The notes beneath the pieces are model-generated. The model was not told where the DNA came from and searched no databases. It saw only the letters and a program-made list of their open reading frames with translations. The translations under genes were made by a program, and so were the position numbers. A stretch of 64,000 nucleotides of DNA, from positions 1,834,561 through 1,898,560 of the forward strand of contig NZ_CP036172.1 in assembly GCF_017357525.1 (NCBI RefSeq), given 5' to 3'. The stretch comes from Methanofollis aquaemaris. Its GTDB lineage: Archaea > Halobacteriota > Methanomicrobia > Methanomicrobiales > Methanofollaceae. Below, one piece after another: positions 2,233 to 38,735 of the stretch (position 1 is the stretch's first letter; each line of letters opens with the position of its first letter).

Positions 2233-2257
2233 TCACTTATTACGTGGGCGGTATCAG

Positions 2258-2270
2258 TACATAAATAACA
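2258..2270 (+). promoter_or_regulatory. Probable TATA box for lysC-purM
   Basis: An AT-rich ACATAAATAACA stretch sits in the 68-nt gap between the divergent tfrA and lysC starts, about 32-40 nt before the lysC ATG. It fits an archaeal TATA box giving a short leader. The call rests on composition and position only. Confidence 0.5.
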
Positions 2271-2300
2271 TCGTGTGGGATCAGAGAGAGTGAGCCAGAA

Positions 2301-17338: not shown

Positions 17339-18541
17339 TTATCTGAGTCTCTTGCCTGTGATCAGGGCGATGACAAGAGCGCCGATGGCACACCCGACCG
17401 GAAGTGGGGACTCCTTCGGTGTCGTAGTGGTGGCAGTATGGGACACTGTGGGGTTTGTAACTATTGTGGCTGTTGTGCCGGCAGGGGCTGCGGCGGTTGT
17501 GTGTGCAAGAACTGGTGTCACGATCGCAAACTCGCCTGCTTCTGAGATCTCTGTCGATATGGTCGATCCGTTGATCCGGCTTGGCAGGGGTTTCCAGCGT
17601 CCGTCGATATACGCGAGGATAGTGAGCGAAGCGGTTTTGTCGACCCCGGCCTTGTTCAGGTCAAGGGTGAGGGTCGCCCCGGGGTTGAAGGATGCACCTG
17701 ACGGAAGGATTGCGTAGGGGCCGGCGGCCGCCTGCCAGTTCTCGGGCACGGCACGGTTGCTCACCATGATGGCAAGGTCATTGGTCCGGGCACCGGAGAG
17801 AGACTCTTCATCGAAGGTGAGGACTGCGCTCCTGTCAAGGGATGAGATGGTCAGGGTCTTCTTTTCGGTCGTTGTCGTCGTCACCGTGCTGTCGTCCCAA
17901 CCCGACGAACCACTGCTGGAGGAGGATGTCGTTGGTCTGGTCGTCGGTACAGTTGTTGGTTCCGAGGCGAGGACAAGGGCGCCGTCGACATAGATTTTTA
18001 CGTTGGCGGTCCCCCCGTTCAGACCGCTGATCGTGAAGGTCATGTCCGAGTTCTCGGGGCCGACCTTCTTTCCTGAGAGATCCATCGAGGTCGTCACAGA
18101 GTCTGCTCCGGCGGTGCCCTCCCCGTTGAGGGTGATATACTGGATGAGTCCCTGTGGGATGTCGTTGTTCTGTCTGATATCCACAACACCGTCTTCGCCG
18201 TCGCCATAGACCATGACGGTCTTGCCGCCCATTTTCGCGCTGAGGCCTGCGGTCTTCACGTTCTCCGCGTGGATCGCGATCCGTCCGTCATCGAGGGCGA
18301 AGGGCATCTGGAAGTTGTTGGTGCTTAGCGAGAAGCGTCCGTCTGTGTCGAGGGGTATGGACGTCTCGATCTGGATCATGAAGGTACTGTTGTCGGGGAG
18401 ATCTCTGATCGAGATGGTGATCGGGTCATTCTCGCTGACGGGGTCTGGTGAAATGGTTACCGTTGCGGCAGAGAGTGGGGCGATAAGAATGATGAGCCCA
18501 ATAATCACTGTCAGCAATTCGGGGGTGCTGGGCAGTTGCAT
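17339..18541 (-). CDS. Secreted surface protein, paralogue of the protein at 33136-34332
   Basis: A 400-residue secreted protein. It has an N-terminal signal peptide ending near ALSAA (residue about 25), a beta-sandwich domain (about 26-190) with ISPDPVSENDPITISI, a Thr/Ser linker with TTTSSSSSGSSG, and a second beta domain (about 230-350) with NWQAAAGPYAILPSG and GRWKPLPSRING. The C-terminal hydrophobic segment with GKRLR could be a membrane anchor. Two Thr-rich linkers suggest glycosylation at the cell surface. It diverges from the subtilase operon across an AT-rich promoter region. A paralogue with the same two-domain layout lies at 33136-34332, also divergent from a surface-protein gene. 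No named family is recognised. Confidence 0.75.
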   Translation of the reverse strand: MQLPSTPELLTVIIGLIILIAPLSAATVTISPDPVSENDPITISIRDLPDNSTFMIQIETSIPLDTDGRFSLSTNNFQMPFALDDGRIAIHAENVKTAGLSAKMGGKTVMVYGDGEDGVVDIRQNNDIPQGLIQYITLNGEGTAGADSVTTSMDLSGKKVGPENSDMTFTISGLNGGTANVKIYVDGALVLASEPTTVPTTRPTTSSSSSGSSGWDDSTVTTTTTEKKTLTISSLDRSAVLTFDEESLSGARTNDLAIMVSNRAVPENWQAAAGPYAILPSGASFNPGATLTLDLNKAGVDKTASLTILAYIDGRWKPLPSRINGSTISTEISEAGEFAIVTPVLAHTTAAAPAGTTATIVTNPTVSHTATTTTPKESPLPVGCAIGALVIALITGKRLR

Positions 18542-18722: not shown

Positions 18723-21700
18723 TTGGCGTATTTACCTTTGCGTGGTCTTCTGACTTTTCTTATATTGCTGGTCCTGCTGGGTTCTGTCAATGCAGGAATC
18801 CCCGGCGGCACGGTCGTCCAGACGGACGAAAAGGTGCCTTTCATTGTTGTCCTCAAGGACCAACCGGAACGCGGAACGACTTTCTCGACGATGAAAGCCG
18901 AGGCTGCCGCCAGTCAGGCATCGGTGCTCTCGTCCATCAGTGCGATCGACTGCGCCGCCGCGCGATCCGCGGAGCGGTTCTGGATTGTGAACGCGATCCG
19001 GGTCGAAGTGGACCAGGCGACGATAGAAAAAATCGCCGCCCTGCCCGGTGTCGACCATGTGGAACCCGACCTGATGGTGATGGCTGACGACCCGGTCACA
19101 GGGACCTCACACATTGTCGATGCCCGGTACGTACGGAGCAGCGACACGTTTGTGATGCCCTGGAACCTCGACTGGGTCGAGGCGCCTGCTGTCTGGGGTG
19201 CCGGGAACCAGGGTGAGGGTGTCACGATCGCAGTCGTGGACACCGGCATCGACGCTTCTCACCCGGCCTTCGGCGGCCGCGTCAGGGCCTTCGCTGACTT
19301 TGTGAATGTGAGCAACACCCTGGCCAGAGACGACAACGGCCACGGCACTCACTGTGCCGGCACCGCCGCGGGCGGCGAGGTTACCGTATCTCGAAATAAC
19401 GGGGGTGACATGAACCTCGTCCTCGGTGTCGCCCCGAAGGCCGACCTGATCGGTGCGAAGGTGCTGGACTCTACAGCTGTCGGTCCTACCAGCACTATCA
19501 TCAAGGGTGTTCAGTGGGCGGTTGAGAACGATGCCGATGTGCTCTCTCTCAGTGTGGGATCCTACTTCTGGAAGTCGGATATGAGACCAAACGAGAACGA
19601 CGAATCATATCTCGCTATCGGGCCGGGAGAGACATTGACCCTGACCCTGGAGGTCTCCTCGAATTACGGTGGAGGCGCTGATGTTTATGAACCCCAGTTT
19701 GTTGTCGGCGGGTATGAACTCGAACAGATGGGGCAGTATTATGCGGCTGCACCATATGCGCCCACACCAGCCAATCTGACATTCTCCCTTACTGCGCCCA
19801 ACGGTGTCACGCCGGTGGGAGGGTTCATCGACTGGGGCGGCTTTGACCATTCGTCCTCCAGGGTGATGTTCAAGGCGCCGTACACCAGCAACAGCGGGAA
19901 CTGGAATGGTTTCTGGACACTGAATGTCACCAACAACGACAATGAAACGGTCTACCTGGAGCAGGCCGCGATCGCCGAGGCCTATGAGTCCGACGGGAAC
20001 ACCGCCTTTGACCTTACCCTGAACAACCTTGTCGAAGGCGGTGTGGTGGCGGTCGTTGCGGCCGGCAACGACGGTTATTTCGGCACCGGCACCATTGGGA
20101 CGCCTGGCACGGCGGCGGACGTGATCACGGTCGGCGCCACCGACTACTGCATGGACTACCGGGCGAGTTTCAGTTCCATCGGGCCGGTGAACCAGGCAAA
20201 CCCCTATGTCAAGCCTGATGTGATGGCCCCGGGTGTCGGCGTTCTCTCCGCCTGTCCGGACGGACAATACGGCGTGATGGACGGCACCTCGATGGCGACA
20301 CCCTGCGTTGCCGGCACGGCCGCCCTCATGCTCGCCGGGAATGATACCCTGACGCCGGCAGAGGTCAAGCAGACCCTGATGGACACGGCTGTCCATATCA
20401 GGGAGGACGGCACGGCGATGGCGACCCCTGAACTGAACAACCTCTACGGCGCCGGCCGGATCAGTGCCTACAGGGCTGTCGAGGCCACCGGCGGGTTGCA
20501 CGGTGCCCCCGAAGCGGCCTCCTCTCTGACCGAACTCTTCGGCGGGCCCTACTATGATCTGAATGACCCGAACACGGTGGAGGTGCTTGGGGTCTGCTGG
20601 AACGCCACGGCAGGCGTCCCTGTTGCTGGAGAGACAGTGAATTTCAGCCTCTATCTCTACGAAAACTCTAATTGGAATATTTACCGAACACAGTCGGCCT
20701 TCACGGATGCCGACGGCATGGCGACCACCTCCTTCGATATCTCAACTCTCGCCGCGGGTCGGTCTTTCAAAGCCGAGGTGACGTGGGGAGACCGCGTCCT
20801 GTCCGGTTCCTACGGGAAGTACAGCACGCCCGGCAGTGGTGGCACGAACACTCCTTCTGCTCCGATCTATGAGGCGCAGTCTTTTATCGCTCCACCGGAC
20901 GGCGCCGTCACGATCCGCTATCCACTCCTGAACATTGATGGTTCGGCCTACACCGAACCGGTCAGGCTGGTGGTGGCGAACACCACGACCACGTTCTTTG
21001 ATGATAACCTGACCCCGGTCGACGGTGTTGTCACGGCCACCGTCGACTTTGCGGGCTTCAATATCGATCCTTCACTCTATTGGACACGTCCCCGCATCAC
21101 GATCAACGGCCGGTCTGCCGGGACAGTGTCGTTTTCGTATGAGGTCTACTATGGGGCCATCTCCTCCCCGAGACTGGCGATCTGCCCGCCCGGCAGTTCG
21201 ATCGACATCGCCCTGCAGGTCGCTGAGCGTCATGGCAATGGTGGCACCGTCACATCGAAGGACTACAAGGTGGACGTGACCGCCTTCACCGAGACGCAGA
21301 TCCTCTCCCTCTCGCCCGATCTCATCGGTCAATTTGCAATCGGGGCACCTATCGGGGGTGCCGCCCTTCTCGAAGCGGCAGGTGGTCTGAAACCCGTAGA
21401 GTCGACCGGGATGGTCAGCGTCACCAACGGCATCGGCATCTACAACTTCACGATGCCGGCGGGATGCTCTGTGGCGGTCGTCAGTTTTGCCGATCCGGAT
21501 AACGAGTATAATGAGCGGGACTCGTTCATGATCTCGGTCGTCTATGGTTCGATGTCGCCCTGGACCCTCCACCGCGTGACCCCGCCGGTGCCGGTCGCAC
21601 TGGAGGCGCTGGACAGTACCTATATCGGCATCTCAGACTACGCCTGGCCGGCGACCTGGAACCAGAGCGAATACCGCTCGGTGCCCGGCGACCAGGCCAC

Positions 21701-24059
21701 CCTTACGGCCTTCGTACTTACCGTGAACGGCACGACCTACGATGTAACCCGTGACGCCGGAAAGACGGTCCGGCTGTACACCGCCGACGGTGTCCGGACG
21801 AACACGACCGACGTCAACGGCACCTGCACCTTCACGCTCGACGTGACAGGAAAGACATCTGAGGACGTGATTCTGCTCACCGAGGGCATCGACTTCTCTG
21901 CGGGAATATTTCCCTATATTCCCTTTGAAATCGACTCAAAAAGCCGTATTTATCCCGGCCTCCTCGAATGCGAACCCGGGACTGCCGCAGCCCTCACGAC
22001 TCTCCGCCCGGCGTCGGAGACCCGGTGGATGGATGTCACCTATCCGGGCAGCGGTTCGTACCAGGTGTCGCTCCACTCCTATGGTCCGGACGACACCCCG
22101 ATCACCGAGCGCGGGATCTTCACCGCAAGTCCCTGTGCCGATTGGTGTACGCAGGGGACCGAATTTGCCGACACGTTCGCCTACATCGGTGACTGGACAA
22201 AGACCATCACCCCGGCCATGAACGGAACCTATGTGGCCCACGCTTCGGTCCTCCGGGGTGGAAAGTTCGTCGATTGGATAGGTCAGATGTTCAGCGTGCC
22301 CGAGGCCCATGTCAACTACACCGTGAAACCCGATATTCTGGTCGGATCAACGGTCCCGGTGACTTTCACCGTCGCCGACGATGACGGCAACCCGATCAGC
22401 AACGCCAAGGTGGGTTTCCTCCTCGGCGCGGCTGCCCAGGCCAATTGCGGCGTAGACTGCTACGATATCCGTCCGATCAACCTTGAGCACCTGGAGATGG
22501 AGTACCCTGATCCGTATTCCGAGGTGCTCGTCGGTTATACCGATGCGAACGGCCAGGTCATCCTGAACATCCACGCCCCCTCGGCCGGGATGGCGATCGA
22601 AAGGAATCTCCTTGGCTTCTCCGACTATGTGCCCTACAGGACGGTCTGTTACAAAGGCGACGAGGTTATCAAGGGCTGCATGGAGTTCGAGATGGAGCTC
22701 GACATGCAGTATTATGACGGCACCTTCAGACTCACCGCCGAGCCCCTGCCCGACTTTGTCCCCGGCGTCCGCGCACCCCATGTGGTGAAGGTGCACAGGG
22801 ACGACACGATCGTGGTCGACAACCTCTATCTCGACATCACAAACCAGGGCACCGCGGACTTCGTCCACACTGACACGGATATTGTGGTGAAGGCATCGGT
22901 CGGGAACAGAGACCAGTCCACCACCTATGCCGGCAACATCGCTGTCGGCGAAACAAAGACCGTCCTGCACCTGGGTTTCGAGGCAGCCGCCTCCGACTAC
23001 GGCATCGACACCAGCAACTACAACCTGCCGGTGGACATGAACATCGACGTGACGGTGAATCAGGATCGGACGATTGCCGAGGTCTCCTATGCGAACAACA
23101 ACATCGTCTATCCGGTGCGGATCACCGCTCCCGACCTCGTGGCGGAGATAAATGTCCCCTCAGTCGTGATCGAGAGCGGCACCCCGACCCCGGTCGCTCT
23201 GGTCGTGACCAATCAGGGCGAGGTGCCGGCCGTTGCAACCACCATGACCTACGTGACCACCGGGAGCCCGGCCGAGACGATCGCCGTCCCGGCGCTCGGC
23301 GCCGGCGAGTCCTGCACGGTCTGGAGAAACAGAACTTTCCTCACCGATCCCGGCGCCTACACCCTCAATTTTGAGGTGAACTCGAACGGTGCAACCGACT
23401 ACGAGACCACGTTTGCGAACAACAAGGTGACGCGGACGGTGAACTGCTACCTCCACCCACTGACCTCTGTCGTGCTGCCGCAGGACCTTGTCCTGGTGCC
23501 GGGAACGACCTACGACCTGCCGATCGTGGTGAACGGCGCAGAGAACCTTTCGGCCTGCCTGATGACCTTCACCTTCGACCCGGCGGCCTTCACGGTCACC
23601 GATGTGACCCCGGGTGCGATCCCGCTGATCGCAGAGAACCTCAAGACCCCAGGTGAGGCGATCTTCGAGGCTGACGCTCCAACCGGCGTCAGCGGTGATG
23701 TGACCGTGGCCACACTTCACCTCTCGGTGACCGGTTCGAGCGGTACCATGTCGGCGCTCCACCTTGACGCTGAACTCAGTGACGAGAACGAGTACTCGAT
23801 CCCGGTCGAGGTGACTCAGGGCAGCGCCGTCCTTCTCCTGTACGGCGACGCGAACGATGACGGGAAGGTCAACCAGGCCGACACCCTCCGCGTCCTGAAA
23901 GTGGTCGTCGGTCTGCCGACGGCGCCGATGCCGGCCACTGGGACAACGCCCTTCCTCCAGGCGGACGTCCATAAGAACAGCGTCATTGAGGTGGGCGATG
24001 CGATGTTCATCGCCCAGAAGAATGTGGGCCTCAGGGATCCGTACTTCAGGATTGTGTGA
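18723..24059 (+). CDS. Giant secreted subtilase with CARDB, cohesin-like and dockerin-like modules
   Basis: A 1778-residue extracellular serine protease of family S8, starting at TTG behind a perfect GGAGGT. Order: signal peptide (1-24); I9-type inhibitor propeptide (about 35-120); catalytic domain with Asp173 (VVDTGID), His207 (NGHGTHC), oxyanion Asn449 (AAGND) and Ser523 (GTSMATP). A beta-sandwich of about 130 residues (about 300-430) is inserted between the His and Asn motifs. Long beta-rich regions follow, then two CARDB-like repeats (about 1350-1570), a cohesin-like domain (about 1577-1706) and a C-terminal dockerin-like module (about 1707-1778) with calcium loops DANDDGKVNQAD and DVHKNSVIEVGD. 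All catalytic residues are present, so it should be active. Carrying both cohesin-like and dockerin-like parts, it could form chains with its neighbours. Confidence 0.92.
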   Translation: MAYLPLRGLLTFLILLVLLGSVNAGIPGGTVVQTDEKVPFIVVLKDQPERGTTFSTMKAEAAASQASVLSSISAIDCAAARSAERFWIVNAIRVEVDQATIEKIAALPGVDHVEPDLMVMADDPVTGTSHIVDARYVRSSDTFVMPWNLDWVEAPAVWGAGNQGEGVTIAVVDTGIDASHPAFGGRVRAFADFVNVSNTLARDDNGHGTHCAGTAAGGEVTVSRNNGGDMNLVLGVAPKADLIGAKVLDSTAVGPTSTIIKGVQWAVENDADVLSLSVGSYFWKSDMRPNENDESYLAIGPGETLTLTLEVSSNYGGGADVYEPQFVVGGYELEQMGQYYAAAPYAPTPANLTFSLTAPNGVTPVGGFIDWGGFDHSSSRVMFKAPYTSNSGNWNGFWTLNVTNNDNETVYLEQAAIAEAYESDGNTAFDLTLNNLVEGGVVAVVAAGNDGYFGTGTIGTPGTAADVITVGATDYCMDYRASFSSIGPVNQANPYVKPDVMAPGVGVLSACPDGQYGVMDGTSMATPCVAGTAALMLAGNDTLTPAEVKQTLMDTAVHIREDGTAMATPELNNLYGAGRISAYRAVEATGGLHGAPEAASSLTELFGGPYYDLNDPNTVEVLGVCWNATAGVPVAGETVNFSLYLYENSNWNIYRTQSAFTDADGMATTSFDISTLAAGRSFKAEVTWGDRVLSGSYGKYSTPGSGGTNTPSAPIYEAQSFIAPPDGAVTIRYPLLNIDGSAYTEPVRLVVANTTTTFFDDNLTPVDGVVTATVDFAGFNIDPSLYWTRPRITINGRSAGTVSFSYEVYYGAISSPRLAICPPGSSIDIALQVAERHGNGGTVTSKDYKVDVTAFTETQILSLSPDLIGQFAIGAPIGGAALLEAAGGLKPVESTGMVSVTNGIGIYNFTMPAGCSVAVVSFADPDNEYNERDSFMISVVYGSMSPWTLHRVTPPVPVALEALDSTYIGISDYAWPATWNQSEYRSVPGDQATLTAFVLTVNGTTYDVTRDAGKTVRLYTADGVRTNTTDVNGTCTFTLDVTGKTSEDVILLTEGIDFSAGIFPYIPFEIDSKSRIYPGLLECEPGTAAALTTLRPASETRWMDVTYPGSGSYQVSLHSYGPDDTPITERGIFTASPCADWCTQGTEFADTFAYIGDWTKTITPAMNGTYVAHASVLRGGKFVDWIGQMFSVPEAHVNYTVKPDILVGSTVPVTFTVADDDGNPISNAKVGFLLGAAAQANCGVDCYDIRPINLEHLEMEYPDPYSEVLVGYTDANGQVILNIHAPSAGMAIERNLLGFSDYVPYRTVCYKGDEVIKGCMEFEMELDMQYYDGTFRLTAEPLPDFVPGVRAPHVVKVHRDDTIVVDNLYLDITNQGTADFVHTDTDIVVKASVGNRDQSTTYAGNIAVGETKTVLHLGFEAAASDYGIDTSNYNLPVDMNIDVTVNQDRTIAEVSYANNNIVYPVRITAPDLVAEINVPSVVIESGTPTPVALVVTNQGEVPAVATTMTYVTTGSPAETIAVPALGAGESCTVWRNRTFLTDPGAYTLNFEVNSNGATDYETTFANNKVTRTVNCYLHPLTSVVLPQDLVLVPGTTYDLPIVVNGAENLSACLMTFTFDPAAFTVTDVTPGAIPLIAENLKTPGEAIFEADAPTGVSGDVTVATLHLSVTGSSGTMSALHLDAELSDENEYSIPVEVTQGSAVLLLYGDANDDGKVNQADTLRVLKVVVGLPTAPMPATGTTPFLQADVHKNSVIEVGDAMFIAQKNVGLRDPYFRIV

Positions 24060-24070
24060 GGTGATTGCAG

Positions 24071-27000
24071 ATGAATGTGAAAAATATCCTGATGGTGGGG
24101 TTTCTCCTCACCGCTCTTCTGGTATCGGCGGCGTCCGCGGCTGACCTTGTGGTCACGCCGCAGAGTTCTACGAGTGCGCTCGGTGAGGTCACCGAGGTGA
24201 CACTGCGGGTTGAGAACGTGGCCCATCTCGGCGGGTTCGATATCGATCTCCACTGGGATCCCTCGGTGGTCACGCTTGACACCGAACCGGACAATGTGAC
24301 CATCGGTTCCCTCTTCTGCGGCCATGTGAACAACTCCGCATGGGGTAGTGATCGCGGGGGTGTCCGCGTGGCGGCGTTGAACGCCAGTCTTGACGGTGTC
24401 TCGGGTGCCGCTGAACTCTTCACCGTGCGCCTGAAGACGGTTGACGACACCGGCAAGTCGACACCTGTTGCGGTTGTGGTGAACAATTATGGATTCCTCA
24501 ATTCGACAAGCGGTGACGACATCCCGGTGAACACGATCACGAACGCCACGATCACCGCGCAGCGGGTCAACCGCATCGTCTCGTATGTTGGTGTTACGGC
24601 CGAGTCCGTCCCACTGGATGCCGAGACTGTCAGTGTCTTCACCGTGGCAAACCAGCGCAATGTCCTGACCTCGAAACTGACGATCAACAGCACCATCTAC
24701 GCCCCCAACGGCTCGGTCTTCAACACCGAAGAACGGAGTGGGGTTATTCTGAAGCCATACGAGCAGAACGTGCAGCAGATCGCATGGACACCGACGCAGA
24801 CCGGCACGTATGTCCTGAATGTGACGGTGACCTCCGACACCGATCTCCCGGTCGTTGGAACGACCACGGCGGAACGCTCGGTGGCCGCGCGCAACTTCAG
24901 CCTTGAGTTTCATCCGTATGTATACGGCTACTCCCGTCCCCAGGTGGACACATGGTTCTGGATGGTATGGTATGTCAAACCAAGTGAGAGCGGGAAGGTA
25001 AAACTGAACCTGAGTGTGCCGGAGAGTATCGAGGTCTGGGGCGAGGCCGAATCTGAACTGTGGATGACCGGCGATGCCCTGAACTATGTCGCGTTCCGTC
25101 TGCGTGCCACCGAGATCGGCACCTTTACCCGTGACCAGTTCAACCTGACGGCGTCGGCACACGGAAAGACGGCCTCGAAAACGAGCACTCATGATGTCTC
25201 AGTCTGGGTACCTTCGATGGAGGTATCGTCGGTGGACTCGGTGAAAGTTGACACCACCGGTGATTTCGAGATGTCCTACAACACCCTCCACACCAACAAC
25301 ACCTGTGACAACCAGACCACTATCATTGTGCAGTCGGGCGCCCGCGGCCGGACGCTCGCCGGTCTTGGCTATCTTGTCGGTTATCCGTATGGGTGTGTCG
25401 AGCAGACCACGTCGAGGATGCTCGCCTCAATGAACGTGAAGAACTACTATCTTGACCGTTCGGACAGGCCGGCCAATTTCCAGATCATCCGCAATGATGC
25501 GAACACCTCGGTGAGCAACGGTGTGGTCAAACTGGTGCGCGGGGGCCAGGTCGGTCAACATGAAGACGGCGGCTGGAGTCTCTGGGGCTGCGGCGAATCC
25601 GAGTCCTCTTCCAGTTCGTACGCCGCCTACACGCTGGCGCGGGTGAACGAGTCGGGCGAAGACCTGAACCACCTGCTGAACGGCAAGGTCAGCAGCGACG
25701 CGACGGTCGACGATGGCACGGTCAACTTCGAGAAAGCGGTCGAATGGTTCCACGAAAACCCGGACGACGATTCGAGCGGCACCTGGACGTGGAGCGCGGG
25801 CGTTTGCCATGCGTGGACGCCGACCTCGAACACCGGGTTCGTGATGCTGATCCACGATATGATCCGGGATCAGGGCACGGTTGCAGAGCCCTATGCGACC
25901 TACATGACGGAGAACATGCAGAATGCCACGCGTTACTTCGTTGGAATCCAGAATTCGGATGAAGGTTACTTCGGCAATGGCCGCGACCGGGCTATGGCGA
26001 CCGCACTCGGGCTCTGGGGTCTTGAGGTCTATGGGACGCCCTCGGATGATGTGACGCAGGACCAGATCAACGATTCAAAGGCGAAGGCAACCGAATGGCT
26101 TATCAAAAACCATGATGCCGACGGTTGCTGGGGCGCCGACCCTGTCTATGGGTACAGCAGCAAGGGTCGGAGATCTGAGAGCACCGCCTACGCCATCCTC
26201 GCCCTGAACGCCACCGGCATCCCCGCGGAGAACGAGACGATCCAGGGTGGCGTGAACTGGCTTGTCGAACAGTACGAGTCCGGCGGGAAGTGGGGATACA
26301 CCTGGGCAACCCAGGCGGCGATCGACGCTCTCATCCACTGTCAGCCGATTGAGGTCAGTGACGGCACGCTCTCGATCTCCATCGACGGGGAAGACATCTG
26401 CACGCTTGAGGTCAACGAAACGAACCCGAAGGTGGAGTACCCCCTCACTGCTGATCAGATGGCGACGGTGATGGCGAACGGTAAGTCGAAACGCGAGATC
26501 ACCCAGTACTCGAAGGTCAAGCAGCACGCCGTCACGGTGACCAGGAACAACGGCAATGGTATGATCCTGGTCTCGATCGAGAACACGCAGCGCGCACCGG
26601 TGAACGAGATCGACGATCCCATCGAGGACACCGGCACCATCCTGTCGACCGGCGGCATCATCCCCGACAACGGGTCGCCGGATGTGGTCCAGTTCTCAGA
26701 GGACATGGACATCCTTGGCGACGCCGCACCCGGAGATCTCTTCGATACGGTGACCCTCACCTCCGACCCGTCCCCGCTTGTTGCGAACGAGTCAGGAAAG
26801 GTGGCGATCCAGGTTGTGTCAGGCGTTCAGGGTGTCTTCTCGCCGATGATCGAGGTGCCGATCGAGGGATTCACCTTTGCAAATGGTACCATCAGCGATG
26901 AGAATGGGAACGATGTAGCCTATCAGGTGCTGCACGGTTCGGTCAACACAGACTCGACCTCGATCTTCATCCAGGCCAATGAATGGACCAGTGATGAGAC

Positions 27001-27898
27001 CTACACCTATGTCTTCGACGCCAAACCCACCCATGTGGGCACTCTCAACTTCAACCTCAGGTTCAAGGCGCTCAATGACGAGGACAATGTCACGCTTGTC
27101 GAGAAGAGTCTGGACGTCATCGGACGCGGCGATGTGGCGGTGAAGGTCACCGACGAGAATGACAGCCCGGTCGTGGCGACGATTGTCCTCGACGGTTCAA
27201 GCCAGACGGCGTCGAGCCACACCTTCGAAGGTCTGCTTGTGGGCAACTATTCGCTCTCGGTCTCGAAGGAGAACTACATCACGGTGAACACCACGGTGAG
27301 CGTCGAGGCGAACGACGAGACCAATGTCACGGTGATGATGCCGACTGATCTCACGACGCCGCGGCTCATCTTCTCCCAGGGCAGCGGTATGCTTGCCGGC
27401 GTCTCGAAGGTTCCGGGCACACTCTCTGCGGCCTTTGCGGAGAACGTTACCTACAATGCGACGGTCGTCGGGAACGGCGGGAGAATAGTACTTGCGCTGG
27501 AATTCCCGCAGCGTTTCCTGTTGAACAACCCGGTGGTGCGGTTGAACGGCGTGGTGCTTGACCCGAGCCAATATGAGATCAGGAGCGGGACGTTCTCCAA
27601 CCCCGATCCGTATGAACCGTTCTCAACCACCAATGCGACGATCATCATCTATGACGCCCCTGACGGTGTTTCAGAGATCTCGATCGAGTTCATAGGTGGA
27701 CGGGCAGGACAGGCGCTTGTTGGCGATCATGAGACCGGCATTCTGGATGCTCTTCGTCTTGCTCAGTTTGATGTAGGACTGAAAGGTGCCCCTGAAACAT
27801 TCGGATACGGTGATGTCAGCGGCGACCTGATGGTCAACATTTTAGATGCGCTCAGAATCGCTCAGTACGACGCTGGTCTGATTCCTGATCTCGCTTAG
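24071..27898 (+). CDS. Alpha-2-macroglobulin-like thioester protein with cohesin-like and dockerin-like modules
   Basis: A 1275-residue secreted protein; the ATG at 24071 follows GAGGTGAT. Order: signal peptide (1-22); cohesin-like domain (about 24-162) with GGFDIDLHWDPSVV; beta domains (163-400); a thioester-domain segment with YPYGCVEQTTSRML, where Cys442 and Gln445 match the internal thioester motif of alpha-2-macroglobulins; an alpha/alpha toroid (about 445-760) ending in a GYTWATQAAIDAL helix typical of these domains; more beta domains; a PEGA/carboxypeptidase-regulatory-like fold (about 1022-1092); and a dockerin-like C-terminus (about 1217-1275) with two LDALRLAQ/LDALRIAQ helices. The first dockerin calcium loop is degenerate. 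The gene starts 11 nt after the subtilase stop. Terpene-cyclase-like toroids look similar, but the Cys-Gln pair favours the macroglobulin reading. Confidence 0.85.
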   Translation: MNVKNILMVGFLLTALLVSAASAADLVVTPQSSTSALGEVTEVTLRVENVAHLGGFDIDLHWDPSVVTLDTEPDNVTIGSLFCGHVNNSAWGSDRGGVRVAALNASLDGVSGAAELFTVRLKTVDDTGKSTPVAVVVNNYGFLNSTSGDDIPVNTITNATITAQRVNRIVSYVGVTAESVPLDAETVSVFTVANQRNVLTSKLTINSTIYAPNGSVFNTEERSGVILKPYEQNVQQIAWTPTQTGTYVLNVTVTSDTDLPVVGTTTAERSVAARNFSLEFHPYVYGYSRPQVDTWFWMVWYVKPSESGKVKLNLSVPESIEVWGEAESELWMTGDALNYVAFRLRATEIGTFTRDQFNLTASAHGKTASKTSTHDVSVWVPSMEVSSVDSVKVDTTGDFEMSYNTLHTNNTCDNQTTIIVQSGARGRTLAGLGYLVGYPYGCVEQTTSRMLASMNVKNYYLDRSDRPANFQIIRNDANTSVSNGVVKLVRGGQVGQHEDGGWSLWGCGESESSSSSYAAYTLARVNESGEDLNHLLNGKVSSDATVDDGTVNFEKAVEWFHENPDDDSSGTWTWSAGVCHAWTPTSNTGFVMLIHDMIRDQGTVAEPYATYMTENMQNATRYFVGIQNSDEGYFGNGRDRAMATALGLWGLEVYGTPSDDVTQDQINDSKAKATEWLIKNHDADGCWGADPVYGYSSKGRRSESTAYAILALNATGIPAENETIQGGVNWLVEQYESGGKWGYTWATQAAIDALIHCQPIEVSDGTLSISIDGEDICTLEVNETNPKVEYPLTADQMATVMANGKSKREITQYSKVKQHAVTVTRNNGNGMILVSIENTQRAPVNEIDDPIEDTGTILSTGGIIPDNGSPDVVQFSEDMDILGDAAPGDLFDTVTLTSDPSPLVANESGKVAIQVVSGVQGVFSPMIEVPIEGFTFANGTISDENGNDVAYQVLHGSVNTDSTSIFIQANEWTSDETYTYVFDAKPTHVGTLNFNLRFKALNDEDNVTLVEKSLDVIGRGDVAVKVTDENDSPVVATIVLDGSSQTASSHTFEGLLVGNYSLSVSKENYITVNTTVSVEANDETNVTVMMPTDLTTPRLIFSQGSGMLAGVSKVPGTLSAAFAENVTYNATVVGNGGRIVLALEFPQRFLLNNPVVRLNGVVLDPSQYEIRSGTFSNPDPYEPFSTTNATIIIYDAPDGVSEISIEFIGGRAGQALVGDHETGILDALRLAQFDVGLKGAPETFGYGDVSGDLMVNILDALRIAQYDAGLIPDLA

Positions 27899-27908
27899 AG
27901 GTGGTATC

Positions 27909-28670
27909 ATGAAATCATCATCATTTTTCTTTATTCTGGCAATTCTCTCGACGGGCTTGATTTATCCAGCGATTGCCGCGTCCGTCGTGTACGAGAACAA
28001 CTCTCTTGTCATCAGAGGAGTGCCGGACGACGGCATCGGCCTTGGTGCATTTGATATTGTTCTCCTTTATCCGGAGGATGTTCAGGTATCGGGCGTCACG
28101 CTCGTCCCTCCGTTTACAGGTGCTGTCAACGATCAGCAGGAAGGGAGAGTGGTCCTGGCCGGGTTCCAGGTCTCTGACGTACTCACCGGCGATGTTCCTG
28201 TGGCTTCACTGACGGTCGCGGGCGACCCCGATTCTCTGGATATCAAAGTGCGTTCTCTGCTCAATCAGAGAACTGAAGAAATTCTAAGAACCAATGCCGA
28301 TTATTCTGAATCTGTATCGCCGTCAGATGGAGGATCTGATGGTTCAGGGGTTTCTTCAGGATCTCAGACCCCTGTGACTTCCGGGGTTGAACGGAGTACA
28401 GGGACTGGATCATCCGGAACATCATCAGGGAAGGTGATTGAGAGGGAAGGCACCGAGGTTGCTATAGATTCTCAATTAAAGTCGGTTATGGGATCAGATG
28501 AAAACACCACGCCGACACCGGATGTTCCAGTTTCAAGCCCTTCAAATCCTGTAAAAGAAACGACCCCCCAGAGGTCTCCCCTTTCGTGGGGGACCATATG
28601 CATGTCTGTTGGTGTGCTTTGTATTGGAAATCGAATTTTATCAAAAATGAAGAGGTGCGATGATGCATAA
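27909..28670 (+). CDS. Small membrane-anchored cohesin-like protein
   Basis: A 253-residue surface protein. A signal peptide covers residues about 1-24, and a single cohesin-like beta-sandwich spans about 24-125 with GAFDIVLLYPEDVQVSG, which parallels the cohesin core of the two upstream proteins. A Ser/Gly/Thr-rich linker (about 130-215) follows, and the C-terminal hydrophobic segment WGTICMSVGVLCIG plus basic KMKRC looks like a membrane anchor. The layout matches a scaffold that displays one cohesin-like domain on the membrane to hold dockerin-bearing partners. GAGGTGG precedes its ATG. It lies 10 nt after the macroglobulin-like gene and overlaps the next gene by 11 nt. Confidence 0.8.
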   Translation: MKSSSFFFILAILSTGLIYPAIAASVVYENNSLVIRGVPDDGIGLGAFDIVLLYPEDVQVSGVTLVPPFTGAVNDQQEGRVVLAGFQVSDVLTGDVPVASLTVAGDPDSLDIKVRSLLNQRTEEILRTNADYSESVSPSDGGSDGSGVSSGSQTPVTSGVERSTGTGSSGTSSGKVIEREGTEVAIDSQLKSVMGSDENTTPTPDVPVSSPSNPVKETTPQRSPLSWGTICMSVGVLCIGNRILSKMKRCDDA

Positions 28671-31600
28671 ACTCAGATTGTTAGTACTTTCAGGTCTGTT
28701 GCTGCTGTGCTGTCTTGGAACGGTGCAGGCGGCCGGAACTGGAATGATTTACGTCACTAATGTTACGGACATTAACTCGACAGAACCTGGTACGGTTCAT
28801 CTTTATCTGGATAACCGGTTTGATCCCCCGGCTGCGGCCTACAATGTCCGGTTGATCTATGACGACACTGTCATCTCCTATGTTGACGGGGTGAAAAAGA
28901 ATGCCACGAACATCAACCCGACGGGCAATGTCATCACGATCAATGGTATTGAGGCAATCGGGTATCCTGCCGGTCCGGTATGGTTGGCTGATCTGAGATT
29001 TGGTGCGGTTGCCGATCCTCCGGATGGAGGTTCGTCCTCTGTTAACATTACTGTGAATACAGTGGGAGATACTGACATCACGGATGTGAAGGCAAATGTA
29101 ACCGTTCGGAACGGTACCGTCACCACCCGTGACGAGGTCGCCCCCAATGTCACCATCGCCACCCCCACGACAGTCTCCTCCACCTTTAACGTCGCCGGTA
29201 CGATTCACGACGTCGGCGGCATGGGCACGGCGATTGCTTACCTCGACAACGGCACGGTTAACGAGACCGTGGACCTGATGCCCCTCACCCGGACCGCCGC
29301 CGACACCTGGACCTTCGACACCGCGGTCACCTGGCCGGTTTACGAACCGGTGACCATCAAGATTTCTGCCACCGACGTTGCCGGCAACACCGCCGTGCCC
29401 CTGCAGACGAAGGTGGTCCAGGTCTCCGAGGTAGGTTTCTCCGACCCCGAACCGACCGGTTACATCAACAGGCAACCCGACAAGATCCAGGTCTTCACCC
29501 GGCGGATGAATCCCACCTCGGTCACGATGACCCTCACCGGGCCTGCGACGATCCCGCTCGACGTGACCTTCGATGGCGACTATGCGCAGAACATCTCCGT
29601 TCCCACTCTCGCCGATGGAACCTGGTATGTGAACGCCACCGGTACCGACACGCCCGGTGGGAATCCCCGCTATCTCAACTGGAGTTTTGTCCTCGACACA
29701 GTCCCGCCGGTGATCAACGCCTTTACCATCACCGACACCGACGGTGACGGTTACCTCGAATCCGGCGAAGTGCTGAACTTCAACTGGGACGTATCCGGTG
29801 CGGGCGTCGTCCTCCTCATGGACAACGTCACCCATGAGGTCTTCTTCGCTTCGACCGATGCCATCGGCACCAACCATACGACCATCGACGTCGGCAACCG
29901 CGACATGGTCTTCGTCGCCTTCGACGAGGCTGCAAACGCTGCGTATGTGCCTTTCCATCTGTATTACAACTACATGGCGTGGATCAACTCCACCAGGATC
30001 GGCACGGTCTCCGGCATCGACACCAACCTCTCTGCGGTGCGCCAGCTCGACCTGACCGCGCAGGGCTCGGTCGTCTTCTACAATGCCCGCGACGTTCCCT
30101 CCGTTCCGATCGGCACGGTTAAAAGGACGGCAACAGGGGTCGGCCAGGTGACGAGCGACACTTATGTTGCGGTCGACAACACCGTCAATGCCACCTATAC
30201 CGGCGCCGACACCTATGACTGCGTCTGGACCTACAACCCGTGCAGCGATCTTGACTTCCTCGTGCAGGCGCCCAACATCAATGCCGCGAACATCATAGTC
30301 CTGGAGGCAAACGAGAGTTACCTTGCTCAACTGGCCAGAGAAGGCGAGTCCGCACGCGACACGATCAATTACAACGACCTCATCCAGAAAGAGGCCTGGA
30401 TCTTCATTGACGGTGGGTACACGAAGATCAAGGTCAATCCTGATGGCACCTTTACTCAGCCTGAAAAGGCCGGCAACCCTCTGATCGTCGCGGCATCTGG
30501 CAATATCATCGACACCCTCCGTATTGCCGATAACCAGGTCAACCTGACCGCCGGGTACTGTCTGGGCACCCAGGGTCTTCCTGTCATCAAACTCCCGGCC
30601 GGTGACTTTGCCCTGGTCGCCATCAGCATGGACGGCGACCGTATCGGTGTCATCACCGGGATGCCCTTCACCGTCATGGAATGCGCCGAAGTGGGCACAG
30701 TGCCTGCATCGGTGACCCGCGGCACGCCCTTCACCGCCGCCTTCCCATCCGAGTGCGATCGCATTGGTACGGTCGTCATCAGGCATGCCACCTGGGACGC
30801 CGATGTCTGGGTCAACGCCAGCACGATTAATCATGATTCGGTCAGTGTGAACCTGACATACGACGGTGTCCCGGCCACGCAGCACCTCTATCACAACATC
30901 TATACCAGCCCCAACGCGGCCGCGTACGCCTATGCCACAAACGCAAGCTCGGTCTCGGTCCCGACCGACAACCTCTGTGCCGGCACCTATGATGTCCACC
31001 TGGTCGCCGTCTGTGAAGAGAACGGCACGGTCAGATCCTACGGCTACCACCAGATCGCGGTGCAGAACCCCTGCGCCCCGGTGGCCGCCTTCAGTGCCGA
31101 CCCGATGACCGGCTTTGCCCCGCTCACCGTGAACTTCACCGACGAGTCCACCGGCCACATCAACACATGGTACTGGGAGTTCGGTGACGGCACCACCTGC
31201 TGGAATCCCAATCCGGCCCTCCACACCTTCAAGAACCCCGGCACCTATCAGGTGAACCTGACCGTGTGGGGCTATGGCGGTAGCAGCACTACTTCAAAGC
31301 AGATCGTCGTCATATCCCCAACGCCGGTCGCAAACTTCAGCGCAACACCGAAAAGCGGGAATGCGCCGCTCACGGTGACCTTCACCGACAGATCCACCGG
31401 CAACATCACCGCCTGGGCATGGGAGTTTGGTGACGGCTCCACCTGTGGCAATCAGAACCCCTCCCCCCATACCTACAACGCCACGGGCACCTATCAGGTG
31501 AACCTGACGGTGACCGGCCCCGACGGCAGTAACACTGCATCCACGGTGATCACGGTGACCGATGTGGCCGCACCGATCGCCAGTTTCACCGCAACGCCGA

Positions 31601-32718
31601 CGAGCGGGTATGCGCCGCTCACGGTGACCTTCACCGACAAATCAGTAGGGAACATCACCTCCCGGTTCTGGGACTTCGGTGACGGCACCAACTGTACCCA
31701 GGAGAACCCGACTCATGTCTTTAATTCGGTCGGAACCTACACGGTGGGCCTGACCGTGACCGGTCCTGGCGGTGCTAACGCCACCTCCACGACGATCACC
31801 GTCAGGAAGAGGTCTTCAGGCGGTAGTGGTGGAGGAGGGGGCCGTTCCTCTCCCCCGACCCAACCGATCGGCCCCTCGGCCCCTGTTGCAGATCTCTGGG
31901 CCGCCTTCGCTCTGAATGGTGCGAACTTCACGACCACGGATGGAACCCAGACCTTCTCGATCGACCTCGATGAGGCGGGCAGGATCAAAATCGAGGGTGA
32001 TATCATCACCTTCAAGAAGAACGGTCTGATCATTGAGATATTGGCGTCTGATCTCAAGAAGACCGGGAACACCATCATCGGCACGGTCAAGTCGGTGAAA
32101 GTCAGGGCCGACCCGCTTGAGACCGAAGTTGAGGGTCTCGGGAATGTTTCCGCACGATTCACTGCAGATTTCCCGTCCTTCCCGTTGAACGGCACCCTCC
32201 ATGCCACACTGGTCGAGAACGTCACTGAAAATGTCTCCTCGGCCTACAGTCTCGCCCTCCTCGACAAGGGGTTCGAGGTCTCCGAGATCGCCTATACCAT
32301 GAAGGTCGTCAAGAAGGGTATCGGGAAGAGCGGTCCCGCGACGATCACGATGACCGTCCCGCCCGAGTGGGTGACGGCCCGCGGCGGCGTTGAGCAGATC
32401 CGGATCCTCAGGCTGGCCGACGACGGCACCACCCAGGTGCTTGAGACGGTCTTCAAGGGCTATGATGCCAACGGCCACTACATCTTTGAGGCGGTCTCTC
32501 CTGACGGTCTCTCCGAGATCGGGCTGGTGGCGGTGACCGCGTCGACCGGCGTCACGGTGCGGCCCACCGATGTGGGCGTCGGCGTGGAAACCCCTCCGAC
32601 GCTCCCGGCCGGCGAGACGCCCACTGACGGGGGTCTCCCGGTCGGTGTGATCGCCGTGCTCCTGGTGGCCATCGTCGCTATCGCTGCGGTCGGCTACTAT
32701 CTGCAGAAGAAGGAATAA
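28660..32718 (+). CDS. Giant PKD-repeat surface protein with N-terminal cohesin-like domain
   Basis: A 1352-residue surface protein ending the subtilase operon. Order: signal peptide (1-25); cohesin-like domain (about 27-150) with PAAAYNVRLIYDDTV; Ig-like domain (about 155-265); a long unclassified region with many N-glycosylation sites; three PKD domains (about 806-1048) carrying WEFGDG, WEFGDG and WDFGDG; a Gly/Ser linker; a C-terminal domain (about 1075-1300) resembling the domain that precedes PGF-CTERM tails in archaea; and a final membrane helix VGVIAVLLVAIVAIAAVGYY plus KKE. Two adjacent ATGs exist; the second, at 28663, is better spaced from GAGGTG. PKD domains usually mediate surface protein-protein contacts. 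The last 300 residues are nearly repeated in the protein at 34427-36637. Confidence 0.85.
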   Translation: MMHKLRLLVLSGLLLLCCLGTVQAAGTGMIYVTNVTDINSTEPGTVHLYLDNRFDPPAAAYNVRLIYDDTVISYVDGVKKNATNINPTGNVITINGIEAIGYPAGPVWLADLRFGAVADPPDGGSSSVNITVNTVGDTDITDVKANVTVRNGTVTTRDEVAPNVTIATPTTVSSTFNVAGTIHDVGGMGTAIAYLDNGTVNETVDLMPLTRTAADTWTFDTAVTWPVYEPVTIKISATDVAGNTAVPLQTKVVQVSEVGFSDPEPTGYINRQPDKIQVFTRRMNPTSVTMTLTGPATIPLDVTFDGDYAQNISVPTLADGTWYVNATGTDTPGGNPRYLNWSFVLDTVPPVINAFTITDTDGDGYLESGEVLNFNWDVSGAGVVLLMDNVTHEVFFASTDAIGTNHTTIDVGNRDMVFVAFDEAANAAYVPFHLYYNYMAWINSTRIGTVSGIDTNLSAVRQLDLTAQGSVVFYNARDVPSVPIGTVKRTATGVGQVTSDTYVAVDNTVNATYTGADTYDCVWTYNPCSDLDFLVQAPNINAANIIVLEANESYLAQLAREGESARDTINYNDLIQKEAWIFIDGGYTKIKVNPDGTFTQPEKAGNPLIVAASGNIIDTLRIADNQVNLTAGYCLGTQGLPVIKLPAGDFALVAISMDGDRIGVITGMPFTVMECAEVGTVPASVTRGTPFTAAFPSECDRIGTVVIRHATWDADVWVNASTINHDSVSVNLTYDGVPATQHLYHNIYTSPNAAAYAYATNASSVSVPTDNLCAGTYDVHLVAVCEENGTVRSYGYHQIAVQNPCAPVAAFSADPMTGFAPLTVNFTDESTGHINTWYWEFGDGTTCWNPNPALHTFKNPGTYQVNLTVWGYGGSSTTSKQIVVISPTPVANFSATPKSGNAPLTVTFTDRSTGNITAWAWEFGDGSTCGNQNPSPHTYNATGTYQVNLTVTGPDGSNTASTVITVTDVAAPIASFTATPTSGYAPLTVTFTDKSVGNITSRFWDFGDGTNCTQENPTHVFNSVGTYTVGLTVTGPGGANATSTTITVRKRSSGGSGGGGGRSSPPTQPIGPSAPVADLWAAFALNGANFTTTDGTQTFSIDLDEAGRIKIEGDIITFKKNGLIIEILASDLKKTGNTIIGTVKSVKVRADPLETEVEGLGNVSARFTADFPSFPLNGTLHATLVENVTENVSSAYSLALLDKGFEVSEIAYTMKVVKKGIGKSGPATITMTVPPEWVTARGGVEQIRILRLADDGTTQVLETVFKGYDANGHYIFEAVSPDGLSEIGLVAVTASTGVTVRPTDVGVGVETPPTLPAGETPTDGGLPVGVIAVLLVAIVAIAAVGYYLQKKE

Positions 32719-33135: not shown

Positions 33136-34332
33136 TCACCACCTTTTGCGCGCTCCTGCTATGGAGAGGATGCCCACGACCGCACCGATCGCCGGGAGGA
33201 TGCCGGCAGGTGTCTGGGTGGGGGTGGCGGTTGTGGTCGGTGTTGTCAGAGAGGCTGTCTCTTCATGGGTGTTCGCCTGGCTTTGAACGGTGGCTGCCGT
33301 CGTGACCGTCGCTGTAACCGGGGCATAGGTCATCAGGGCATAGGTGCCGGTGGTTGTGATCGTGGCCGAGATCTCTTCGCCGTTGATGCTGGAAGGGAGC
33401 GGTTTCCACGTCCCTTCGGCATATCTGGCCAGGAAAAGGGTATATGCCTCTGGTTCGGCTGCGATATTTTTCGGGAGCCTGAAGATGAGGGATGCCTCCG
33501 GGGAGAAGGTCTTCTCTTGAGGGGTCAGGGTGTATGCGCCGGTGATGGCCTGCCAACCCTCCGGCACCTCCGCGACCTTCACGTTGAGGACGGAAATGCA
33601 ATCTGTAGCCTTCCCGGTGACACGGACGACACCGTCGACCGAGCGCTGCTCGGGGGTTGGGGTCTTGGTCACCCTCTCACCGACATTGCTGTGCCCGCTC
33701 GGAATGCCGGGGTTTGAAGGTTGTGTCGGGGTGACGCCCCCTCCGATGGTGATCTCTCTGGAGAGTTCCTCGTTCCCGTTCACCAGGGCGGTTATGGTGA
33801 CCGAACCATCGGTGATCCCGCCGATCTTAAAGGAGATCTCTGAGTCATCCGGCCCCTTTTTCTCGCCGGTCAGGCTCATGCTCGTCCTGATGTCGGTGCT
33901 CTTCTCACCGGCCGTGCCGCTGAGGGCGAGGTGTTCGTAGGTTCCGGCACTGATGTTGTAGTGCTGGGTGGTCGAGTACCGCCCGTCTTCGTCGGCCAGA
34001 TCGCCCATGCTGTAAGTTGCCCCACTTGTCTTCACTTCAAGTGTCGTACTCCGGGTGTGCTCGGTGCTGGCGGTGATCGTCGAGTCTTTGAGGCTGATGG
34101 GCATCACAAACTCTTCGGTCCTGAAGACGAATTTCGAACCGGGGTCGACTGCAAATGCGGCGTCTATCCTGAGGGAGAATGATGCCCCATCAGGGATTCC
34201 CTGCAGATCGACGGTCACCGTCCCACCCTCCTGGACAGTGTCAGGTGAGGCCGAGACTCCTATTGCGCCCGCTCCTGCAGGGAGGGTGCAGAGTAAACAA
34301 CATATGAAAAATGTTGAAACACTTCTTATCAA
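33136..34332 (-). CDS. Secreted surface protein, paralogue of the protein at 17339-18541
   Basis: A 398-residue secreted protein. The signal peptide ends near residue 23 (PAGAGA). A first beta-sandwich (about 24-190) begins VSASPDTVQEGGTVTVDL, mirroring the paralogue's ISPDPVSENDP opening. After a Pro/Ser/Thr linker, a second domain (about 230-350) contains GWQAITGAYTLTPQ and GTWKPLPSSINGEE, again matching the paralogue. The C-terminal Thr-rich stretch and the final hydrophobic segment (PAIGAVVGILSIAG) followed by RKRW look like a membrane anchor. It diverges from the surface gene at 34427, copying the divergent layout at 17-19 kb. The function is unknown; a cell-envelope role is likely. Confidence 0.78.
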   Translation of the reverse strand: MIRSVSTFFICCLLCTLPAGAGAIGVSASPDTVQEGGTVTVDLQGIPDGASFSLRIDAAFAVDPGSKFVFRTEEFVMPISLKDSTITASTEHTRSTTLEVKTSGATYSMGDLADEDGRYSTTQHYNISAGTYEHLALSGTAGEKSTDIRTSMSLTGEKKGPDDSEISFKIGGITDGSVTITALVNGNEELSREITIGGGVTPTQPSNPGIPSGHSNVGERVTKTPTPEQRSVDGVVRVTGKATDCISVLNVKVAEVPEGWQAITGAYTLTPQEKTFSPEASLIFRLPKNIAAEPEAYTLFLARYAEGTWKPLPSSINGEEISATITTTGTYALMTYAPVTATVTTAATVQSQANTHEETASLTTPTTTATPTQTPAGILPAIGAVVGILSIAGARKRW

Positions 34333-34426
34333 TCAGATCACCACTAGATTTACCATATTTTTCAGATCTAGTTTTGAGTACAAATAAAAAAACATATCAC
34401 TATTGAAGATATATTATTGCCCTATC
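34333..34426. promoter_or_regulatory. AT-rich divergent promoter between two surface genes
   Basis: The 94-nt gap is AT-rich, with an AAAAAAACATATCA tract (34386-34399) about 30 nt before the plus-strand ATG and a TTTACCATATTTTT tract nearer the minus-strand start. No Shine-Dalgarno is seen before 34427, so that transcript may be leaderless. Confidence 0.5.
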
Positions 34427-38063: not shown

Positions 38064-38735
38064 ATGAGCACCGAGGTTATCAGGCTGGAACATGTGCGGA
38101 AAGTTTATCCGCGGCTTGCCGGAGACGTCGTCGCCCTTGACGACCTCTCCCTTACGATCGAGGGGGGTGAGTTCGTGGCCGTGATGGGCTCATCCGGATC
38201 GGGCAAGTCTACGCTCATGAACCAGCTCGGCTGCCTCGATGTCCCGACCTCCGGCAACCTCTGGATCTCCGGAAAAAACGTAGGTGAGATGAGCGACTTC
38301 GAACTGACCGAACTGCGCCGCGACACTATCGGGTTCGTCTTCCAGAAATTCAACCTCATTCCGGTTCTAACAGCGCGGGAGAATGTGGAGATCCCTCTCA
38401 TCCTCAAAGAGAAACATCGGGACACTGAGGGCCGGGCCGAGGCCCTCCTCAGGACCGTCGGGCTCGAAGGCGAGGTGATCACCCACACCCCGGCAGAACT
38501 CTCCGGCGGTCAGCAGCAGCGGGTGGCCATCGCCAGGGCCCTGGTCAATGACCCGAAGATCCTTCTCTGCGACGAACCGACCGGGAACCTGGACTCAAAG
38601 ACGAGCACGCAGATCATGGATCTCCTGGCCACTCTCCACCGTGAGGGTCGGACGGTGGTGATGGTCACCCACGACCAGGCCACCGCCGGGTACGCCGACC
38701 GGATCGTGACCATCTCGGACGGGCGGGTGGTCTGA
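38064..38735 (+). CDS. ABC transporter ATP-binding protein (MacB/LolD-like)
   Basis: A 223-residue ATPase of the MacB/LolD/FtsE group. Walker A SSGSGKST is at residues about 43-50, the Q-loop is GFVFQKFNLIP, the signature LSGGQQQRVAIARAL lies near residue 140, Walker B is ILLCDEPTGNLD, and the switch histidine is in VTHD. These ATPases power lipoprotein or peptide export through a FtsX-type permease, which is the next gene, starting immediately after this stop. An AGATAG run precedes the ATG. The substrate is unknown; adjacent secreted-protein genes fit an envelope role. Confidence 0.93.
   Translation: MSTEVIRLEHVRKVYPRLAGDVVALDDLSLTIEGGEFVAVMGSSGSGKSTLMNQLGCLDVPTSGNLWISGKNVGEMSDFELTELRRDTIGFVFQKFNLIPVLTARENVEIPLILKEKHRDTEGRAEALLRTVGLEGEVITHTPAELSGGQQQRVAIARALVNDPKILLCDEPTGNLDSKTSTQIMDLLATLHREGRTVVMVTHDQATAGYADRIVTISDGRVV

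Follow-up and report, generated by a model that had tools for sequence, protein, structure and literature searches.

The thioester gene and its neighbours

We analysed a window of 64,000 nucleotides from Methanofollis aquaemaris (contig NZ_CP036172.1, positions 1,834,561 to 1,898,560 of the forward strand), in which a gene for a protein with a thioester domain (TED) stands in a run with genes for a subtilase, a small membrane-anchored cohesin protein and a large surface protein with PKD repeats. The genes of the run and the domains of the TED protein are listed by position in the window, with TED residues counted from the ATG at 24071.

18723-24059, + strand: secreted S8 subtilase, 1778 amino acids (aa), catalytic D173/H207/S523; C-terminal CARDB, cohesin (23454-23831) and dockerin (23832-24056)
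24065-27898, + strand: TED protein, 1277 aa when read from TTG (1275 aa from the ATG at 24071), with a hydrophobic signal at the N-terminus and without a C-terminal membrane span
24140-24568, + strand: N-terminal cohesin domain (orthologue Pfam matches, PDB sequence matches, hhalign)
24560-25204, + strand: two predicted Ig-like domains, MG6- and MG7-type (model alignment to CD109 and C3; MG labels read from the matched ranges)
about 25214-25336 and 26360-26599, + strand: predicted CUB-like beta domain in two halves flanking the TED (secondary structure, model)
25346-26359, + strand: alpha/alpha toroid of the TED (Pfam TED, C4d match, secondary structure)
25385-25417, + strand: thioester motif PYGCVEQTTSR, Cys codon 25394-25396, Gln codon 25403-25405
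25808-25810, + strand: codon of His580 (SAxVCH), by profile alignment with the 'PVIH' His of human C4-B
26738-27115, + strand: predicted MG8-like beta domain (model residues 727-852, inside the C3 match 825-1494)
27170-27337, + strand: PEGA domain (Pfam PEGA, E 2e-7)
27698-27895, + strand: dockerin with two internally matching repeats, ILDALRLAQFDVGL / ILDALRIAQYDAGL (repeat comparison)
27909-28670, + strand: membrane-anchored cohesin protein, 253 aa; signal, predicted cohesin-fold domain (27975-28304), Ser/Thr/Pro/Gly-rich stalk, C-terminal hydrophobic segment
28660-32718, + strand: large surface protein, 1352 aa; cohesin-like N-domain (28729-29130), Ig region, PKD repeats, C-terminal membrane span

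The initial annotation had placed PYGCVEQTTSR in a secreted macroglobulin-like protein and named Cys442 and Gln445 as the thioester residues; translation of the open reading frame bears out both the position and the residue numbers, and the WATQAAIDAL helix that it described is present, beginning at residue 745. Its reading of the helical toroid as a thioester domain agrees with Pfam, where the window protein scores E 4e-9 against TED_complement (PF07678; 36.4 bits, curated cut-off 22), and with a fold match to C4d (Z 26 over 283 residues), and the N-terminal hydrophobic signal fits the secretion that it proposed. The TED protein is the sole PF07678 match in the window genome. Its other Pfam matches are PEGA, cyclase-C over the toroid helices and a trace of dockerin.

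A search of 199 Methanomicrobiales genomes, all species representatives, yielded 17 full-length short-type proteins of ~1270–1300 aa (the window protein included, the other 16 being 45–81% identical to it) and eight long-type proteins of 1700–1990 aa that are 24–28% identical to it. A TED profile run over the 232 genomes of the class recovered these 25 proteins, all at E below 1e-120, and 20 further genomes matched part of the toroid only, at E 1.5e-8 or worse. The Pfam TED match is found in all 25 aligned relatives (E 0.05 or better), and PxGCxEQ is kept in every one, as PYGCVEQ in the 17 short-type and as PHGCPEQ in the eight long-type proteins, with Cys, Glu and Gln invariant at identities as low as 21–24%. 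The TED gene with an intact thioester motif is thus confirmed as genuine and far from a chance occurrence. As for the suggestion that the domain combination is uncommon, the cohesin/dockerin ends are real, but the protein is no one-off: 25 genomes of the order conserve it along with its neighbours.

His580 is a candidate for assisting the thioester. It is present in 17/17 short-type proteins, and the segment that holds it is missing from 8/8 long-type ones. In a profile alignment with human C4 it falls on the 'PVIH' His of C4-B, where C4-A has Asp; this is a single alignment, made with the 24-sequence profile alone, because a short-type-only profile is too narrow to reach His580. In C3 and C4-B, this His transfers the acyl group to hydroxyls.

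The TED, anchored-cohesin and PKD genes are contiguous in 25/25 loci. The gene that follows TED has 229–267 codons and a spacing of -23 to +22 base pairs (bp) in all 25, and the large surface-protein gene comes third at -31 to +96 bp (the L042 copy is cut by the contig end). Upstream of TED, the subtilase gene is found in 21/25 loci, with a spacing of -4 to +25 bp where the locus is short-type (17 loci) and of 88–125 bp in four long-type loci. The tight four-gene run appears to be co-transcribed. Among the 21 subtilase proteins, Pfam finds S8 in 20, cohesin in 19 and dockerin in 18; of the triad, D and H were found in 19/21 and S in 20/21, and no copy that covers the triad has lost it, the gaps being a frame that lacks the N-terminal catalytic part (L046) and one that starts at a contig edge (L034). 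The TED and S8 proteins carry a signal at the N-terminus and lack a C-terminal span, while the two downstream proteins have both features. The C-terminal hydrophobic stretch of the small protein lies above the threshold in 24/25 copies, with the window copy slightly under it (1.5), and the large surface protein is hydrophobic at both ends in 24/24.

In a scan of named genomes, the motif was found at another 79 loci, where its presence is guaranteed by the scan pattern. One of them (L057:3-3071), on a contig of 4,980 bases in a Nanohaloarchaea bin, encodes a long-type PHGCPEQ protein with a symmetric dockerin of two like repeats, which reflects either transfer or misbinning. Three Asgard loci (L058, L059 and L070) encode proteins of ~2000 residues with YPYGCVEQ, which by their sequence look like fuller macroglobulins.

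Predicted fold and domain order

An AlphaFold2 (AF2) model of TED protein residues 164–1103 (predicted local distance difference test, pLDDT, 76.4; predicted template modelling score, pTM, 0.57) was matched by Foldseek to CD109, A2ML1, Salmonella alpha2-macroglobulin (A2M), E. coli A2M, TEP1, C3 and C5. A second aligner superposed the model on C4d (1hzf; Z 26.0, 3.0 Å, 283 residues), model residues 112–852 on C3 (8cem) residues 825–1494 (Z 23.6, 6.6 Å, 588 residues), and model residues 4–855 on CD109 residues 555–1401 (677 residues) with a root-mean-square deviation of 20.9 Å, a large value that we read as a probable difference in domain placement. From this model and its matches, the TED protein is predicted to be half a macroglobulin, its C-terminal half, in the order MG6/MG7-like, CUB, TED, CUB and MG8-like, followed by PEGA, one further domain and the dockerin. 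The term macroglobulin-like used in the initial annotation therefore holds for the fold and the thioester motif, though only for the C-terminal half of such a protein and with the bait region absent.

MG1–MG5 and a bait region were not found in the window protein, where only the cohesin stands ahead of the MG6-like domain, and this latter domain is compact in the AF2 model, without a long low-confidence insert. No macroglobulin was found in the eight long-type N-terminal extensions, where a profile search against the PDB gave nothing at E 0.1; in Pfam this extra N-terminus matches cohesin in 7/8 and CARDB in 5/8. A full macroglobulin in the long type was thus rejected.

A squalene-hopene or terpene cyclase was ruled out as well, as RKTES stands in the archaeal profile at the place of the cyclase DVDD motif and the C4d match reaches Z 26. 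The cyclase matches stem from the repeat helices of the toroid. The pattern D.DD is present in 4/25 TEDs, counted anywhere in the domain.

Docking domains and their co-variation

The initial annotation had described cohesin-like and dockerin-like ends, and both are found. The N-terminal domain of the TED protein matches Pfam Cohesin in 13/16 orthologues (the window's own copy has no match), its best PDB sequence matches are scaffoldin and Archaeoglobus fulgidus cohesins, and the TED and S8 cohesins align in hhalign at 97.7%; by this family evidence the domain is a cohesin. The window TED dockerin is weak in Pfam (E 0.095), with Dockerin_1 in 11/25 relatives, and its duplicated repeat is plain in the sequence. 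The 253-aa protein type gave no cohesin match in Pfam (0/25) and no PDB sequence match. Its domain of ~110 aa was modelled by AF2 at pLDDT 95.5; the top Foldseek match of the protein, and the only one below E 0.001, is the A. fulgidus cohesin 2xdh, which also gives the highest score in the second aligner (Z 11.7), where cohesins dominate the best 45 matches listed. The modelled domain is accordingly predicted to be a cohesin. The N-domain of the PKD protein reaches 92% in hhalign against the S8 cohesin, a sequence comparison alone, with Pfam cohesin in just 2/24.

Internal repeats of the dockerins were compared in 24/25 TED and 20/21 S8 proteins (L044 dropped). The two TED repeats resemble each other within a protein (0.73) far more than they resemble their counterparts in orthologues (0.32), with the own partner best in 22/24, and none of 20,000 permutations reached this symmetry (n = 24). 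The S8 dockerin is the opposite, with 0.24 within a protein and 0.63–0.67 between orthologues, that is, conserved and asymmetric. Dual-mode dockerins have two like repeats. Dockerins of the S8 type were also seen on other proteins of 151–2512 aa in related genomes (G003, G009, G021, G027, G033 and G057), 58–69% identical where the dockerin alone matches, and for this reason the genus may use the S8-type dockerin as a general plug for the cell surface.

Co-variation of the docking parts was measured by partial Mantel tests in 14 of the 17 short-type genomes, controlling for phylogeny by the TED body, the S8 catalytic part and the PKD middle, with p values obtained by permuting genomes because genome pairs are not independent. 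Left out were a near-duplicate of L037 (L044), a genome with a cut PKD gene (L042, also missing from the PKD alignment of 24/25) and one with a truncated S8 (L046). The TED dockerin varies between species, and this variation follows that of the PKD N-domain (0.72, p 0.0001) and of the anchored cohesin (0.67, p 0.0001 with the three controls). Anchored cohesin and PKD N-domain correlate at 0.56, which drops to 0.16 (p 0.12) once the dockerin is given, so that the dockerin looks like the hub in the short type. Most of the signal lies within the last 80 TED residues, the small cohesin protein and PKD residues 1–160; at the PKD domain boundary the bin correlation falls from 0.47 to 0.08, and elsewhere one bin reaches 0.50. 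In an independent set, all eight long-type genomes, the dockerin again correlates with the PKD N-domain (0.59, p 0.0002) and with the cohesin (0.41, p 0.008); there, unlike in the short type, the small cohesin and the PKD N-domain form the strongest pair (0.82). Dockerin, anchored cohesin and PKD N-domain therefore co-vary beyond phylogeny.

Two comparisons illustrate the pattern. Between the window and L032, the backbone is 84% (TED body) and 77% (PKD middle) identical and the docking parts are 21% (dockerin), 39% (small cohesin) and 24% (PKD N-domain) identical. Between the window and L033, the corresponding values are 68% and 60% for the backbone and 74%, 84% and 66% for the docking parts. 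The S8 dockerin correlates with the TED cohesin at 0.51, and TED residues 61–197 are the best of 67 domain-sized windows.

The runs at L037:8014-11847 (- strand) and L044:4396-8295 (- strand) are near-identical except in TED-gene nucleotides ~1700–3240, where identity is 59–91% between flanks of 96–100%; the divergent stretch covers the second half of the TED, CUB, MG8 and PEGA. This difference is either an allele replacement or a chimeric assembly, the latter being possible because the L044 genome is fragmented (87% complete, 210 contigs). In another genome of the same genus (L186:6409-13310, G003) the thioester gene is absent and transposase-like genes, judged by eye to be probable transposases, lie at the missing TED site upstream of the PKD gene, which has lost its first ~90 residues and with them most of the N-domain.

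Outside the run, two proteins of ~400 aa flank it on the opposite strand (17339-18541 and 33136-34332, both - strand), each with a signal, a Ser/Thr-rich linker, a C-terminal span and no Pfam family match; relatives of one or both recur next to many other loci. Further downstream, 34403-36637 (+ strand) encodes a second surface protein whose C-terminal module is 76% identical to residues 1024–1352 of the 28660-32718 protein, and 38064-39896 (+ strand) holds an ABC transporter ATPase and a MacB/FtsX-like permease, assigned by eye. The MacB/FtsX-like permease recurs in L032, L033 and G003.

Proposed function, alternatives and known systems

The most likely reading, to which we give about even chances, is that the TED protein is a surface-tethered covalent capture device. 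The motif, the fold, the gene run, the anchors, the cohesin fold and the docking co-variation were computed and are supported, and from them we infer thioester formation and reactivity, physical docking, a trigger and a target. The secreted half-macroglobulin would carry an internal Cys442–Gln445 thioester, shielded until activation, and the activated thioester would acylate a nearby nucleophile. The C-terminal dockerin would plug into the cohesins of the two downstream membrane-anchored proteins on the archaeal surface, and the dockerin of the upstream subtilase could bring this enzyme to the same surface, perhaps by way of the N-terminal cohesin of the TED protein, where the subtilase may trigger, process or be restrained by that protein. 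Most probably, the device would serve to tag or trap covalently, at the cell surface, proteases, predators or virus particles that attack the cell. It appears quite unlikely that the run forms a complement-like system on a prokaryotic surface, in which a C4B/C3-type thioester effector works with a docked serine protease as convertase, species-specific dockerin/cohesin sockets are swapped as matched sets and recombination diversifies the effector half.

Several observations weigh against the proposed capture device. Directly upstream of TED, a protease gene is missing from four long-type loci, and pLDDT is only ~50 around the thioester motif in the AF2 model. In the window genus, the protein is present in 5/12 genomes and absent from 7/12, so it is dispensable. 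The co-varying parts adjoin on the DNA, and in the pair L037/L039 the dockerin is kept (0.64) and the PKD N-domain is not (0.37), which fits poorly. The link between S8 dockerin and TED cohesin falls to 0.30 without four genomes, a single bin elsewhere reaches 0.53, and the S8-like dockerins on other proteins in related genomes weaken it further; given that subset value and those other dockerins, docking of the S8 dockerin on the TED N-terminal cohesin is a guess.

The main alternative, which we regard as unlikely, is a covalent adhesin that uses its thioester, as Gram-positive adhesins do, to attach the methanogen to surfaces or to cells of syntrophic partners, with the subtilase maturing surface proteins. 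The membrane-anchored, PKD- and Ig-rich neighbours have an adhesin-like anatomy, and a His580 aligned with the C4-B His would favour hydroxyl targets such as glycans; however, MG7-CUB-TED-CUB-MG8 is the effector half of macroglobulin and complement proteins, an adjoining protease would not be expected, and the thioester domain of Gram-positive adhesins has an unrelated fold. A classical alpha-macroglobulin trap acting by bait cleavage would share the fold and PYGCxEQ, E. coli A2M aligning through the motif, and would account for a protease gene next to TED in 21/25 loci. Since MG1–MG5 and the bait region are missing, that mechanism is not transferable, and the long-type N-terminus of cohesins and CARDB, with no macroglobulin match, makes a trap of this kind most improbable. 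The structural look of the neighbouring proteins would also suit a dead thioester, the toroid serving as a spacer in a cohesin/dockerin-linked surface or S-layer assembly. We consider this very unlikely, because disuse should have let Cys, Glu and Gln drift, and they are invariant in 25/25 proteins down to 21–24% identity.

A different objection concerns the docking signal itself, which might say nothing about binding and stem from hitchhiking on a recombining stretch of DNA. Because the co-varying parts adjoin one another, a single recombined stretch could produce the signal, and other parts of the cluster are mosaic as well. On the other hand, the signal ends at the PKD domain boundary and is repeated in the independent long-type set, and the pair L037/L041 separates the parts, with the intervening cohesin 87% identical yet the dockerin at 48% and the PKD N-domain at 33%, a separate divergence that argues against a recombining segment. 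We therefore hold hitchhiking to be somewhat unlikely.

If the capture device is real, the effector half of the complement/macroglobulin family can work without MG1–MG5 and bait when cohesin-dockerin pairs attach it to a cell surface beside a protease. The loci would also offer natural matched dockerin/cohesin sets whose specificity is testable, and a simple archaeal protein in which to measure thioester chemistry, His-assisted or not.

Among known systems, the TED protein resembles complement C3/C4 and CD109/TEP1 in its contiguous MG7-CUB-TED-CUB-MG8, its thioester motif and a His aligned with that of C4-B, and differs from them in lacking MG1–MG5, an anaphylatoxin and a bait insert and in having cohesin/dockerin ends. 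Bacterial type I A2M (E. coli YfhM, Salmonella) shares the YPYGCxEQT motif and the TED; it is described in the text of PMC5764988 as having ~13 domains and a bait region, whereas the archaeal protein is half as large in domains, has no bait and is dockerin-held. Cohesin/dockerin systems, both cellulosomal and non-cellulosomal (Archaeoglobus, 2xdh), likewise have anchored cohesins, dockerin-bearing effectors and a matching cohesin fold, but their effectors are polysaccharide hydrolases, where those of the present run are a protease and a thioester protein. For anaerobic methanotrophic (ANME) archaea, PMC9012536 reports dockerin/cohesin proteins and never mentions thioester or macroglobulin. The closest precedent is PMC8416519 (2021), whose main text describes 27 archaeal proteins with TED and CxEQ in differing domain layouts, suggests a role in conflict, and places them in neighbourhoods of surface proteins, endoproteases and antimicrobial-peptide transporters. 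These TED/A2M homologues are like ours in their CxEQ TED with Ig-like domains, secretion and gene neighbours, and the transporter genes at 38064-39896 recall the peptide transporters near them. That main text does not contain the words cohesin, dockerin or subtilase or four Methanomicrobiales genus names, although its supplements may list members. No report of a dockerin-bearing thioester protein was found in literature listings and the beginnings of abstracts, subscription texts and supplements lying outside that search. Archaeal thioester domains are thus already published, and the new part is their cohesin/dockerin-wired build with co-varying docking parts.
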